The notes under the pieces were generated by a model. That model did no database searches. It saw only the letters and a list, made by a program, of their open reading frames with translations, and was not told where the DNA came from. Source: an uncultured Saprospirales bacterium (GTDB lineage Bacteria; Bacteroidota; Bacteroidia; Chitinophagales; Saprospiraceae). Taken from it: a stretch of DNA of 46,647 nucleotides. Within the stretch, counting starts at the first letter, position 1. Each line of letters starts with the position of its first letter. Shown one piece after another: positions 41,133-45,127 of this stretch. The translations under genes were made by a program, and so were the position numbers. The stretch covers positions 1-46,647 of the forward strand of contig CALCCH010000559.1 of the NCBI GenBank assembly GCA_937899855.1, written 5' to 3'.

Positions 41133-43331
41133 TTAGCGTTGTACTAAAACCTTTTGGACAAATACTTTTTCCCCCTGGCGAATCGTCAGCAATAGGGTTC
41201 CGTTGGGAATGCGATCGAGGGGCAGTTGATCTTCGTAGTGACCGTCAAAGTCCGCCAGGTCTTGCTGGAGCAGTTCCCGGCCGTCCAGGGCTCGCAAGGC
41301 GATTTGGGTGGGCGAAACCTCGGCGTCAAAGCGTACGTTGAGGTACTCGTCGGCGGGGTTGGGAAAGGCACTAAAATTGTTCAGGCTGAGCGCGCGTACG
41401 GGATTTTCCACCGCGTCCCGCTCCGTTCCTTCCAAGCGGAACGCTACGGGGAGATTGAAGTAGACGCTAGCACTTTTACCATTGGCAGTTGCGCCGGGGG
41501 TCCAGGGCCCCAACTCCGTCTTCATTTGCTCCACGACCATCAGCACGGCCTCGTCACAGCCGTAGCCCAGCGAGCGCGTCACGCGGGGCTTGCGCAAATG
41601 GCCCTCGCTATCGATGATGAATTTGGTCATCACCATGCCTTCGATGCCACTCTGCTTGGCATCCTCCGGGTATTCGAGGTGCTCCATTAGGAATTCAAAG
41701 AGCTTGGCGTTGGAGCAGGCCTGGTCTTCGCAACCCGGCAGCAAGGGCATCCGGTCGGCCACTTCCAATACCTTTTCCTCCCCCCCGGCCAACTTGAACT
41801 TGACGGGCAGGTGCATCTGCACCGCTACCGGTGCGCCAGCCTGTCGGCCCGGCACCCATTGCGGTAGGTTTTTGACCACGCGCAGCACCTCTTCATCACA
41901 ACCCCCACCGATCGAACGCATGATTTCGGGATCGTGGACCCGACCGTCTTTATCGACAATAAAGCGGGCCACTACTACCCCTTCCAAGCCCCGTTCGCGA
42001 GCGGCTTCGGGATACTGGATATTGGCGTAGACCTCGGATAACATTAATTGCTGGGTACAGGTTTTAAATGCTTCGCCCTCCAGGTCTTCGCAACCCGGCA
42101 GGTGGGGCATCCGATCCACCACGGTAAAGACCGCGCCTTCGGCGGTTTCCATAAAGTAGGCGGTCGTGCCGTTGCCTTTGGACCGGATTTGGATGGGTAC
42201 GCCCCGCTCCGCAATCAATTCCTCCGCTAAGGTCTTGATCTCTTCGGCCCGCTCCGGGTATTGTAATACATAGGTGTCGTACTGCGCCCGGAAGCGCCCG
42301 AAAGCGGCTTTTCGGATGCTAAAATCAGTGGCTTCACTTAGGGATGCCAGTTCCTTTGCCAAGGTGCTTCGCACTTTGGCCGCTTCAAAAGGGTCGGGGT
42401 TGGTCACGACGGCTGGGGGATTCACTTCGGCCGTGGTGTTGTCAAAGTCCGTAGTGGAAAAGGCCAAGAGTAAAAACGCGGCCAGCGGCAACAAACCAAG
42501 GTATTTCACCAGCGCTATACGGCTGGAGGTATTTTTGGTCATCATAATAATGCGTTGTTTTAATTGTGAGTGAAAAATGGAGTGCGCCAAAGCAGGGTGT
42601 TGTCCGGACTGTGCTTGCTTTAGCAACAATTGGCCATATTGTTTTTTAGGGGCAGTATCGTAAACGGCGGCATCCGCCAGATATTCGTGGACATTGCGCA
42701 GGGCAGTTTTGTAATAGTAGATGGGAGGTAAAAACCAAAAGAGAATGCCCAACAATTCCAGCAGCACGATGTCGAGGCTGTGGTACTGACGCAGGTGCGC
42801 CAACTCGTGCTGGAGTACGTAGTTTTCTTCCTCGGCAGCTAGACGCAGGGAACGACTCCAGAACAGGTAGCGAAAAAAGGAAAAGGGCGAGTGGGTCTCC
42901 GAGGTGCGTACCAGTACGTACCCCCGCCGGGGTTCCACCACGCTCCGCTGGTACAAGCGGTAGAGCTGTCCAAAGCCCCAGCCCATCCGCAGTAGGAAAA
43001 AGACGGCGCCCAGCAAGTATGCCAGTGGCAGGATGCGAAACCAAAACGCAAGCCGCTCCGCCGTGGGTTGAACGCTGATGGCCTCCACCGTATACTCCAA
43101 CTGCTGTACCGTGACGGTGACCGGTTCGAGAAAGTATTGCAAACCCTCTCCTTCCACCTCATCGACCGGTTGCCAAGGCAAGTCCAACACGGGAATCAAT
43201 AGCCCGAGTACCAAGGTTCCCAGGAGGTACCAACGGTTGAGCCGAAAAAAGGTCTCCCCCCTCAGGAATAGGCCATAAAGCAATAAGAAAATGCTCCAGC
43301 AAATGCCCACCTGAATTGCGTAGTTAAGCAT
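41133..43331 (-). CDS. BlaR1-like M56 peptidase with two TonB C-terminal domains and a T9SS sorting domain
   Basis: The start is ATG 43331 (MLNYAIQVGICWSIFLLLY), overlapping the repressor stop; the ATG at 43337 is also possible. The protein has 732 residues. The N-terminal M56 membrane domain has about four spans, with zinc motif HELAH (175-179) and downstream HEYLADAA (215-222). A periplasmic linker follows, then two TonB_C domains (VYANIQYPEAARERGLEGVV... and HLEYPEDAKQSGIEGMV...). The C-terminal about 75 residues read FSAFPNPADEYLNVRF...PNGTLLLTIRQGEKVFVQKVL, a type A T9SS sorting domain. BlaR1 homologues sense a signal and inactivate BlaI-type repressors. A sorting domain for outer-membrane secretion on an inner-membrane protein is unusual. 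Confidence 0.88.
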   Translation of the reverse strand: MLNYAIQVGICWSIFLLLYGLFLRGETFFRLNRWYLLGTLVLGLLIPVLDLPWQPVDEVEGEGLQYFLEPVTVTVQQLEYTVEAISVQPTAERLAFWFRILPLAYLLGAVFFLLRMGWGFGQLYRLYQRSVVEPRRGYVLVRTSETHSPFSFFRYLFWSRSLRLAAEEENYVLQHELAHLRQYHSLDIVLLELLGILFWFLPPIYYYKTALRNVHEYLADAAVYDTAPKKQYGQLLLKQAQSGQHPALAHSIFHSQLKQRIIMMTKNTSSRIALVKYLGLLPLAAFLLLAFSTTDFDNTTAEVNPPAVVTNPDPFEAAKVRSTLAKELASLSEATDFSIRKAAFGRFRAQYDTYVLQYPERAEEIKTLAEELIAERGVPIQIRSKGNGTTAYFMETAEGAVFTVVDRMPHLPGCEDLEGEAFKTCTQQLMLSEVYANIQYPEAARERGLEGVVVARFIVDKDGRVHDPEIMRSIGGGCDEEVLRVVKNLPQWVPGRQAGAPVAVQMHLPVKFKLAGGEEKVLEVADRMPLLPGCEDQACSNAKLFEFLMEHLEYPEDAKQSGIEGMVMTKFIIDSEGHLRKPRVTRSLGYGCDEAVLMVVEQMKTELGPWTPGATANGKSASVYFNLPVAFRLEGTERDAVENPVRALSLNNFSAFPNPADEYLNVRFDAEVSPTQIALRALDGRELLQQDLADFDGHYEDQLPLDRIPNGTLLLTIRQGEKVFVQKVLVQR

Positions 43332-43722
43332 GGTCATCCTCTTTTGGTGGATCAAGGTCCTGTAACAGATCGTTGAGCTCTTTTGGGTCGAGCTTTTCCT
43401 TGACGACCAGGAAGGACACCAGGTTTTGCATCGAGCCATCGAAGTAATCCGTCACCAGTTTGCGGAGGGTCCGACTACTGTACTCCTCCTTACTCACCAG
43501 TGGAAAATACTCGTAGGTACGGCCGTAGGCCTTGTGGTCGATAAATCCCTTCTCCTCCAAAATCCGTACGATGGTCGAGATCGAGCTGTGAGGGGGTTTG
43601 TTGCCGCCCTGCTCGGTAGCAATCATCTGCCGAATATCACTGACCGTGCAGCGTTCCAATTTCCAGATCAGCTGCATGATCTCCTCTTCGGCTTTGGTTA
43701 ATCTTTTCTTTTGCATAGACAT
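43324..43722 (-). CDS. BlaI/MecI/CopY-family transcriptional repressor
   Basis: The start is ATG 43722 (MSMQKKRLTKAEEEIMQLIW) or 43716; the frame is open to 43761 but that part overlaps the promoter. The protein has 132 residues. The winged-helix N-terminus has LTKAEEEIMQLIWKLERCTVSDIRQMI and SSISTIVRILEEKGFIDHKAYGRTYEYFPLV, the standard family pattern. The C-terminal dimerisation region is VTDYFDGSMQNLVSFLVVKEKLDPKELNDLLQDL. The operon order with an M56 peptidase matches BlaI-BlaR1 pairs. Two palindromic sites in the promoter suggest autorepression. Confidence 0.93.
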   Translation of the reverse strand: MSMQKKRLTKAEEEIMQLIWKLERCTVSDIRQMIATEQGGNKPPHSSISTIVRILEEKGFIDHKAYGRTYEYFPLVSKEEYSSRTLRKLVTDYFDGSMQNLVSFLVVKEKLDPKELNDLLQDLDPPKEDDHA

Positions 43723-43758: not shown

Positions 43759-43789
43759 CAAAGGTATAACGTATTTTTTAGCTTATCAA
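43759..43789 (-). promoter_or_regulatory. Promoter of the BlaI/M56-TonB operon
   Basis: On the minus strand TTG (43789-43787) and TACCTTTG (43766-43759) are 20 bases apart, an exact match to the Bacteroidota -33/-7 pattern. Transcription would start near 43752, about 30 bases before the repressor start codon. Confidence 0.75.
43766..43786. promoter_or_regulatory. Operator 2 within the promoter spacer (imperfect palindrome)
   Basis: ATAACGTA (43766-43773), five T, TAGCTTAT (43779-43786). The right arm matches the complement TACGTTAT at six of eight positions. It exactly fills the space between the -33 and -7 elements, so a bound repressor would block RNA polymerase. Confidence 0.6.
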
Positions 43790-43802
43790 CTATTTAGTAC
43801 GC

Positions 43803-43828
43803 TTTATAACGTAAAAATACGTTATAAA
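43803..43828. promoter_or_regulatory. Operator 1, perfect palindrome upstream of the BlaI promoter
   Basis: TTTATAACGTA (43803-43813), AAAA, TACGTTATAAA (43818-43828): 11-base perfect arms with the same ATAACGTA core as operator 2. The two centres are about 40 bases apart. It lies just upstream of the -33 element and is the best candidate site for the BlaI-type repressor. Confidence 0.7.
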
Positions 43829-43930
43829 AACAAAACCACCTCCTAACCAACTGTAAATCAGTACATTTAGAAAGCAAACCCTTAAACAAATAAAAATAAT
43901 TAGTATTTAATAAATACCTTTACAATGGTA

Positions 43931-43961
43931 TTGTCCCCGCTGGGTGGGAACTGTATCTTTG
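43931..43961 (+). promoter_or_regulatory. Promoter of the small transcription unit
   Basis: TTG (43931-43933) and TATCTTTG (43954-43961) are 20 bases apart, an exact match to the Bacteroidota consensus. A transcript would begin near 43968. No annotated-size gene lies downstream on this strand before the terminator at 44293-44327. Confidence 0.72.
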
Positions 43962-44091
43962 TAATGTCTTTAACAAACACCCACACTTCTTTCCCCCCAT
44001 CTACAAACTACGAACATTCCCGACGGCTTAGGAAACCGCGACCACTTACAATACAGATTTTGAGGAAAAACTAGAACATCCACCCACCCGT

Positions 44092-44141
44092 GTCCGCCTA
44101 CAACAAGCGGACCCACCCGGTACGGCCCTAAGTGGCGTACC
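44092..44141 (+). promoter_or_regulatory. Tandem hairpins just before the small ORF
   Basis: Hairpin 1 is GTCCGC (44092-44097) with GCGGAC (44107-44112), loop CTACAACAA. Hairpin 2 is GGTAC plus GCC (44119-44126, one bulged G) with GGC plus GTACC (44134-44141), loop CTAAGT. The second ends 5 bases before the ATG at 44147 and could gate ribosome access. Confidence 0.5.
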
Positions 44142-44146
44142 CATCT

Positions 44147-44293
44147 ATGAGCAAACCACATTGGGGACAGCAAAACACAAGATTAGAACAGACTCTTTTT
44201 ATAGTTCAGACGAAACACGACTTCTCACCCGAGTCGCGCTGGCCAGACATTCAGGTATCCAGCAACAAAAAACTCATGCAATTTATGGATTAG
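44147..44293 (+). CDS. Small ORF of 48 codons ending at the terminator
   Basis: ATG 44147 to TAG 44291-44293; an in-frame TAA at 44129 limits it upstream. The product begins MSKPHWGQQNTRLEQTLF and ends SSNKKLMQFMD, is soluble and mixed-charge, and includes the phrase HDFSPESRWPDIQV. It has no signal peptide or membrane span and I recognise no family. The stop codon overlaps the first base of the terminator stem, an arrangement expected of a real gene end. There is no Shine-Dalgarno sequence, which is common in Bacteroidota. A second short frame-matched ORF (43964-44074, 36 codons) starts too close to the -7 element to be on the transcript. Confidence 0.45.
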   Translation: MSKPHWGQQNTRLEQTLFIVQTKHDFSPESRWPDIQVSSNKKLMQFMD

Positions 44294-44327
44294 GGCTGCC
44301 CGCCAATTTTCGGGCAGCCCTTTCTTT
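44293..44327 (+). terminator. Rho-independent terminator of the small transcription unit
   Basis: GGGCTGCCCG (44293-44302) pairs perfectly with CGGGCAGCCC (44311-44320), loop CCAATTTT, followed by TTTCTTT on the plus strand. On the minus strand there is no T-tract, so it serves mainly plus-strand transcripts, although it may also stop the convergent barrel gene. Confidence 0.85.
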
Positions 44328-44331
44328 GGTC

Positions 44332-45084
44332 TTAATCAATATATTCGTAGCGATTGAGGAAGCGGAAGCCGAGGGTGACCTCCAGGGTCGTATTGTTGAG
44401 CTCGCGGCTGGGCAGGTTGATGAGCATGGAGTTGTAGGGATTGGTCACGTTTTCGATGGGGGGCTGGCGGTACTGATTCGAAAAATCGGGATTGACCGTC
44501 ACCTCCAACAACACGCCGATGAGATCGGTAATACTGAATTCAAAACCTCCCCCCACGATAACACCGTAGTTGAAGCGCTGTACGAAGGCGTCAATCGGGT
44601 AATAGGGAGCCAGGTTGTTGTTGAAGATTTCGTAGTCCCGCAAATTGGTATTGACGGTGTAGTCGCCCCGCAAACCCATAAAATAGTAGACGCTATTGTA
44701 GCTGTCGCCCAGGGGGCGGCGCTGTTTTCCCCCGATGGCCAGGGAGATGTTGCGAAATTCGTAGCGATCGTTGCGACCGGGCAGGTCGCGCAGATTGCCC
44801 GAGTTGTCGCGAATGGTTCGGGTAAAGGTACGTACGGCCCCGCCCCGAACGTGATAGCCCGCCTGGGCAAACACGGCAAACCGCTGGTCCTCCGGCGCCG
44901 ACTCGATAAAGGCAATCCCGTGGTAGGACAATAGCGGATCGCGCTGGTTGCCGTTGCCATTGACGCCTCCCCACTTTTGGAAGCCAATGCTCAACCCCCC
45001 TTTGGCACCGAAGGCAAAGCCTTGTGCCCCCAGGTCGCTGCCCAACAGCGCGATGAATAATAATCCCAGTACATATTTTTTCAT
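44332..45084 (-). CDS. Outer-membrane beta-barrel protein (PorT/OmpA-barrel-like)
   Basis: The start is ATG 45084 (MKKYVLGLLFIALLGSDLGAQ), a signal peptide; upstream open sequence is not protein-like. The protein has 250 residues. The mature chain opens FAFGAKGGLSIGFQKW, the typical first strand of PorT-like eight-strand barrels. It continues with strands RFAVFAQAGYHVRG, VYYFMGLRGDYTVNTNLR, YGVIVGGGFEFSITDLIGVLLEV and the closing LEVTLGFRFLNR. The function is not specified by the sequence. It is 43 bases downstream of the glucosaminidase gene and could be co-transcribed with it. Confidence 0.82.
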   Translation of the reverse strand: MKKYVLGLLFIALLGSDLGAQGFAFGAKGGLSIGFQKWGGVNGNGNQRDPLLSYHGIAFIESAPEDQRFAVFAQAGYHVRGGAVRTFTRTIRDNSGNLRDLPGRNDRYEFRNISLAIGGKQRRPLGDSYNSVYYFMGLRGDYTVNTNLRDYEIFNNNLAPYYPIDAFVQRFNYGVIVGGGFEFSITDLIGVLLEVTVNPDFSNQYRQPPIENVTNPYNSMLINLPSRELNNTTLEVTLGFRFLNRYEYID

Positions 45085-45127
45085 GGTCCGATCGTATTGG
45101 TTCAAAAAAGTCATTTTAGTCCACCAT

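Follow-up and report, generated by a model that had tools for sequence, protein, structure and literature searches.

A predicted operator-controlled noncoding RNA in the gap between a blaI-like gene and a barrel gene in Saprospiraceae

The gap between a blaI-like gene and a convergent gene for a predicted outer-membrane beta-barrel protein in an uncultured Saprospirales bacterium most likely encodes, on the plus strand, a noncoding RNA some 360 nt long, whose conserved blocks would be mostly unpaired rather than part of a highly structured molecule. On balance we favor the interpretation, drawn from sequence comparison, that this RNA is a trans-acting small RNA (sRNA) controlled by a transcription factor, within a regulon that mixes RNAs and surface proteins. 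The window, by which we mean the whole stretch of 46,647 nucleotides that was analyzed, is contig C559 of genome G000 (6.77 Mb, 807 contigs). The original prediction had described in this gap a promoter TTG-N20-TATCTTTG, two tandem hairpins, a 48-codon open reading frame (ORF), and a terminator, all of which are present; the gap between the two minus-strand genes is real too, and measures about 612 nt rather than 570. What had been missed is the most informative feature, a palindrome AATACC-N8-GGTATT. The features discussed below, with their fate in the genus-mate genome G001, are as follows.

43324-43719, minus strand: blaI-like repressor gene, the divergent neighbor (Pfam Penicillinase_R, 6.3e-28)
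43765-43830, no strand assigned: probable BlaI operators TATAACGTA ... TATAACGTAAAAATACGTTATA over the blaI promoter, a role suggested by their position; conserved in G001
43913-43932, plus strand: putative palindromic operator overlapping the -33 box; conserved in G001 and recurrent family-wide
43931-43961, plus strand: Bacteroidota-type promoter with -33 and -7 boxes; same boxes and spacing in G001, spacer diverged
43966-44330, plus strand: predicted noncoding RNA, about 360 nt, delimited by its promoter and terminator (ends inferred rather than mapped)
44024-44038, plus strand: conserved block 1, CGGCTTAGGAAACCG, 15/15 identical in G001
44065-44083, plus strand: conserved block 2, GAAAnACTnnAACATCCAC, 16/19 identical in G001
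44147-44293, plus strand: the 48-codon ORF, judged not to be a gene
44160-44194, plus strand: conserved block 3, ATTGGGGACARCAAAAC(A)ACAAGATTnGAACAnACT, 32/36 columns identical in G001, with a 1-base indel that breaks the ORF frame
44267-44327, plus strand: conserved block 4, AAAAAACTCATGCAATTnATGGA and then the hairpin and T-tract of the terminator, 52/61 identical in G001 (blastn E 8.7e-13)
44292-44321, plus strand: intrinsic terminator stem with tail TTTCTTTGG; hairpin read in both the window and G001
44332-45087, minus strand: predicted outer-membrane beta-barrel protein gene, the convergent neighbor (barrel reading by eye)

The barrel gene has a homologue in 270 of the 298 family genomes, and its product matches no Pfam family. 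The blaI-like gene is followed by a gene for an M56/TonB_C protein (41133-43334, minus strand), an M56 protein of BlaR1 type that carries TonB_C domains too and has a weak Por_Secre_tail match below the cut-off.

A DNA search of 40 genomes gave matches in two only, the window's own genome and G001, where the unit lies on contig CALLVY010000720.1 of the metagenome-assembled uncultured Saprospiraceae bacterium R3_Bin_METABAT__216_sub, as identified in a GTDB pattern scan. Gene order in G001 is the same as in the window (blaI, gap, barrel, LysM-type protein), and the gap is longer, about 855 nt. The two gaps align as a series of islands: the blaI operators, the palindrome, the equally spaced -33 and -7 boxes, the four blocks, and the terminator. 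In the flanking genes, in contrast, four-fold sites are randomized, only 10/86 being identical (4/30 in blaI and 6/56 in barrel), a figure that may partly reflect a possible difference in base composition between the two genomes; against this background the blocks are 84-100% identical. Nor does the similarity depend on the terminator: without it, the RNA bodies of the two genomes align with a local score of 50, compared with a maximum of 29 in 500 shuffles, and the 5′ half alone scores 34 against a shuffle maximum of 28. Operator, promoter, and terminator are shown at the level of sequence, as is purifying selection on the blocks; block 4 could be kept in part as the terminator of the barrel gene.

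The promoter has the form expected for the Bacteroidota primary sigma factor, with TAnnTTTG at -7 and TTG near -33; the -33 TTG occupies 43931-43933 and, after a 20-nt spacer, the -7 box occupies 43954-43961, so that transcription would be expected to start at about 43965-43968. Such a motif is not rare by itself, TTG-N17-23-TAnnTTTG matching five times in the window on both strands where about 2.5 matches are expected by arithmetic; one of the five, on the minus strand at 43789, is likely the blaI promoter. We nevertheless regard the promoter at 43931 as credible because G001 keeps both boxes and the identical 20-nt spacing despite an unrelated spacer sequence (6/20 identical). The terminator, predicted to have 10 pairs, has 11, and the combination of promoter and terminator exceeds chance because it is conserved. 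It is likely, as originally proposed, that the plus strand carries a transcription unit of about 360 nt with an intrinsic terminator at its end; by sequence, a stand-alone unit with its own promoter and intrinsic terminator is what is expected of a bacterial trans-acting sRNA. The predicted RNA is rich in C and A and poor in G (C 0.31, A 0.33, G 0.17; G 0.13 in the G001 counterpart). Our literature search found no mapped transcription starts for Saprospiraceae within the literature searched.

Conserved blocks could in principle be DNA sites rather than parts of an RNA, that is, operators for several DNA-binding proteins together with a shared convergent terminator, the transcript itself being functionless. 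We consider this unlikely. The region does hold BlaI operators and the new palindrome, and the G001 terminator hairpin, flanked by a T-rich tail at either end, looks bidirectional and is probably the terminator of the convergent barrel gene as well; but blocks 1 to 3, none of which is a palindrome, are located 60-230 nt past the promoter, with this conserved promoter on one side and a terminator of equal orientation on the other, and a 30-nt A-rich stretch like block 3 is rarely needed by DNA operators.

Is the product of the predicted transcript a protein or an RNA? The original prediction allowed for either a 48-residue protein behind a structured, possibly regulatory leader or a structured RNA of about 360 nt, and neither survives in that form. 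The ORF is open to a stop that adjoins the terminator stem, as a genuine gene might be; however, i) the homologous frame in G001 meets a 1-base insertion within block 3, plus a stop, so that the frame conservation in relatives expected of a small protein gene is absent; ii) an ORF of at least 48 codons occurs in 187/1000 dinucleotide shuffles; and iii) the product has no match in Pfam. For these reasons the ORF is not a conserved protein, and a protein with a structured leader strikes us as extremely improbable, the more so as folding provides no signal. The two tandem hairpins (GTCCGC/GCGGAC at 44092-44112 and GTACG/CGTAC at 44120-44140) are indeed there, ending 6 rather than 5 bases before the ATG, and have no sequence counterpart in G001. 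Without the terminator, the window RNA folds no better than shuffled sequence (z -0.03, 47/100 shuffles as good), and the G001 RNA scarcely better (z -1.07, 16/100 shuffles as good); together with a downstream gene that is convergent, these values do not fit a structured cis-regulatory leader or riboswitch. Including the terminator, z is -1.27 in the window and -3.79 in G001 (20 shuffles). A highly structured RNA was rejected, since folding without the terminator is at chance and the G001 value of -3.79 includes the terminator and is based on 20 shuffles only. Thus, the RNA unit stands and its strong structure does not: an unconserved frame, an ORF length expected by chance, and shuffle-level folding together point to a noncoding RNA, neither a protein gene nor a structured leader, and an RNA without a conserved reading frame is what one would expect of a trans-acting sRNA. 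The prediction was to fall if close relatives conserved neither structure nor frame; frame and hairpins are in fact not kept in G001, whereas promoter, linear blocks, and terminator are.

We were unable to trace the RNA body beyond the genus. Rfam gave no match at gathering thresholds in the window, in agreement with the earlier impression that the unit belongs to no known RNA family, and nine relaxed matches, mostly to the terminator, fell far below threshold; Rfam searches of L002, L122, and nine other loci found nothing except two tRNAs, and a tRNA/tmRNA scan found none. The pattern of block 3 occurs in 2/298 family genomes, and by this measure the body is found only in the window's genus. 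Models of the 5′ domain (R1) and 3′ domain (R2), built from G000 and G001 and searched in 248 genomes at E <= 0.1, matched 10 and 15 genomes, respectively; beyond the two training genomes, R1 matched eight others at E 0.02 to 0.1 and R2 matched 13 others at E 4e-4 to 0.1. These outside matches are unconvincing, as none of the 16 loci inspected holds the other blocks together and the best R2 matches are ordinary terminators. The GTDB pattern scan returned five stretches, with other blocks only in the G001 contig; two viral pattern scans and the search of plasmids and phages returned none; and following synteny, the blocks are missing from 28 of the 30 best barrel loci.

The palindrome, unlike the RNA body, leads well beyond the genus. 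Four copies of AATACC-N8-GGTATT are found in G000 and two in G001, with none in the reversed control, and four of these six stand at an equal distance from a -33/-7 promoter (three perfect, one with one mismatch); by eye, the promoter is shifted by one base at the fifth (C327) and none is seen at the sixth (C667). Extended to a combined operator-promoter pattern, ATACC-N8-GGTATTG-N19-21-TAnnTTTG, the search finds 40 sites in 28/298 family genomes and 18/112 genera, where about 0.13 would be expected by arithmetic for random sequence and where reversed controls give 0 throughout. When the inner spacing is freed to 4-12 bases, it is exactly 8 in 38 of 46 matches (7 in three, 6 in three, 9 in one, and 10 in one), in a scan of 278 genomes that are largely those of the 40-site scan and are related rather than independent. 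So strong a preference for 8 bases makes the palindrome look like a dimer-type binding site, putatively for a transcription factor; its half-site spacing presumably recalls NarL/LuxR-type sites. The center of the putative operator lies about 42 nt before the expected start, which fits a class II activator, although a repressor is also possible. The literature searched held nothing pertinent on this operator.

A second unit (C401 in G000 and C628 in G001) shares both operator-promoter and start region with the window unit, and its two members share a 3′ region of their own. A gene with a signal-peptide-like start follows the C401 promoter after about 320 nt, and PKD-type and similar genes in other genera lie 490-580 nt behind the operator promoter. 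This geometry would suit a history in which the window RNA is a copy of a surface-protein leader, separated from the gene it preceded and now titrating, as a decoy (sponge), the binding partner of such leaders, a scenario that we judge quite unlikely, for the C401/C628 and other leader bodies are not significantly similar to the stand-alone RNA. More generally, 15 of 16 shuffle tests of the window RNA body against the bodies of other operator units were not significant, and the single exception (p 0.033) was lost on correction; a more permissive comparison of C720 (G001) with C628 gave p 0.015 for a region that includes the start. Paralogy among the bodies of the operator RNAs was rejected by these shuffles, though their motifs look alike by eye. 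On the minus strand of C628 (L086), downstream of 573, near-copies of a module with GGCTTAGTAGAA and CTCCCACCACCCAT are seen by eye.

In eight of the 39 units other than the window's (L113, L120, L121, L122, L126, L139, L140, and L174), a terminator-like hairpin is reached sooner than any ORF of at least 90 codons, a count made without shuffle control and in which the L174 hairpin lies inside a leader; the G001 counterpart (L124) was missed by the hairpin script because its loop is longer than allowed. L120/L121 (g84, about 86 nt) and L139/L140 (g97, 124-150 nt) are very short stand-alone units with strong terminators, and would be easier sRNAs to test than the window's. In L114-L118 (five genomes of genus g94) the operator-promoter is followed by a long region without convincing open frames, containing islands identical or nearly so in the five genomes (for example TCCTGTGAACATAAACCGGAG, AGCCTTCC, and AAATTTCAAAGCTA), and this region is probably another operator-controlled noncoding RNA, to judge from its sequence. 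Other units precede genes with signal-peptide- or lipoprotein-signal-like N-termini, 50-580 nt behind the promoter; of 15 downstream proteins submitted to Pfam, several had no match and the others included PKD_6, WG repeats, DUF4856, imelysin, and 7TMR-DISM. At G094:C45:154791 and 331054 and at G281:C474:8126, lipoprotein genes of the DUF4856 and imelysin types (assigned by Pfam in L141 and L173, L142 being similar by N-terminus) follow the operator. Such genes are often linked to iron uptake, and their presence may hint at the signal in the genus concerned. An enriched-motif search found, post hoc, AACCGR in 10/29 operator-unit leaders (shuffle mean 2.67, maximum 8 in 200), followed in several leaders by TCCCAT-like strings; AACCGR may represent a common element of the RNA or of the start site.

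In G111, from another genus, L122 has the operator-promoter facing blaI-M56 once more; for about 790 nt behind it no ORF reaches 90 codons, and a terminator comes next. Promoter and location next to blaI can therefore outlast the RNA body. On the other side, a relaxed pattern does not find the operator-promoter in 27 of the 30 best blaI loci, three of these 27 having less than 700 nt of upstream DNA. We also considered a local role for the RNA, since only a few nt separate its predicted end from the barrel stop codon and blaI synteny is kept in both G001 and G111: either blaI would be affected or the barrel gene would be, the latter through read-through antisense or because transcription collides at the terminator that the two units share. 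This seems very unlikely: the neighbor in G111 is, by sequence, not a barrel but a biotin-carboxyl-carrier-like protein, and conservation extends to the promoter and to those blocks that are remote from the junction.

We thus return to a trans-acting sRNA, which is favored because the unit is self-contained and untranslated and has conserved, accessible stretches. Specifically, a transcription factor would bind AATACC-N8-GGTATT near -42, over the -33 box of the primary-sigma promoter; the bound factor, which we infer to be an activator rather than a repressor, would switch on the stand-alone RNA; transcription would end at the intrinsic terminator; and the RNA, untranslated and not strongly folded, would act in trans on presumptive targets as a regulatory sRNA, its conserved and largely unpaired blocks pairing with mRNAs or binding a protein. 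Elsewhere in the family the identical operator-promoter would drive stand-alone RNAs, long leaders, and predicted secreted-protein genes, and the RNA would thus probably be one of the outputs of a common surface-protein program. We tentatively go further, with somewhat less than even confidence, and propose a hitherto undescribed Saprospiraceae regulon, with a factor that recognizes ATACC-N8-GGTAT over the -33 box and with outputs that are in good part noncoding: stand-alone RNAs, lineage-specific and of fast turnover while the operator-promoter stays, and long leaders of secreted or adhesin-like proteins, with the RNA beside blaI as one example. If the reading of the window RNA is right, a gap of the kind that annotation usually leaves empty contains a regulated noncoding RNA, and the operator offers a motif by which a control network can be searched for in this large environmental family, so that the regulon could be tested in any Saprospiraceae genome from its sequence.

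Among known systems, the candidate resembles the RyhB type, a Fur-controlled trans-acting sRNA, in being a stand-alone RNA with a promoter operator, an intrinsic terminator, and a regulon common with protein genes, but it is longer and less structured. It has the same operator-promoter geometry as C401, L174, and L179, the long 5′ leaders of large surface-protein genes; those leaders run into the gene, whereas the window RNA ends at a terminator facing a convergent gene. In Flavobacterium psychrophilum, the sRNA Rfp18 is conserved at genus level, affects mRNAs of secreted proteases, has a secreted adhesin as a predicted target, is described as strongly folded, and was experimentally tested (PMC9723704). 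Compared by description, the window RNA differs in being predicted, not strongly folded, and equipped with a palindromic operator; like Rfp18, it is a candidate regulatory RNA with genus-level conservation from a Bacteroidota lineage with a TAnnTTTG primary sigma factor. Rfp18 is the nearest published kind among the literature searched.
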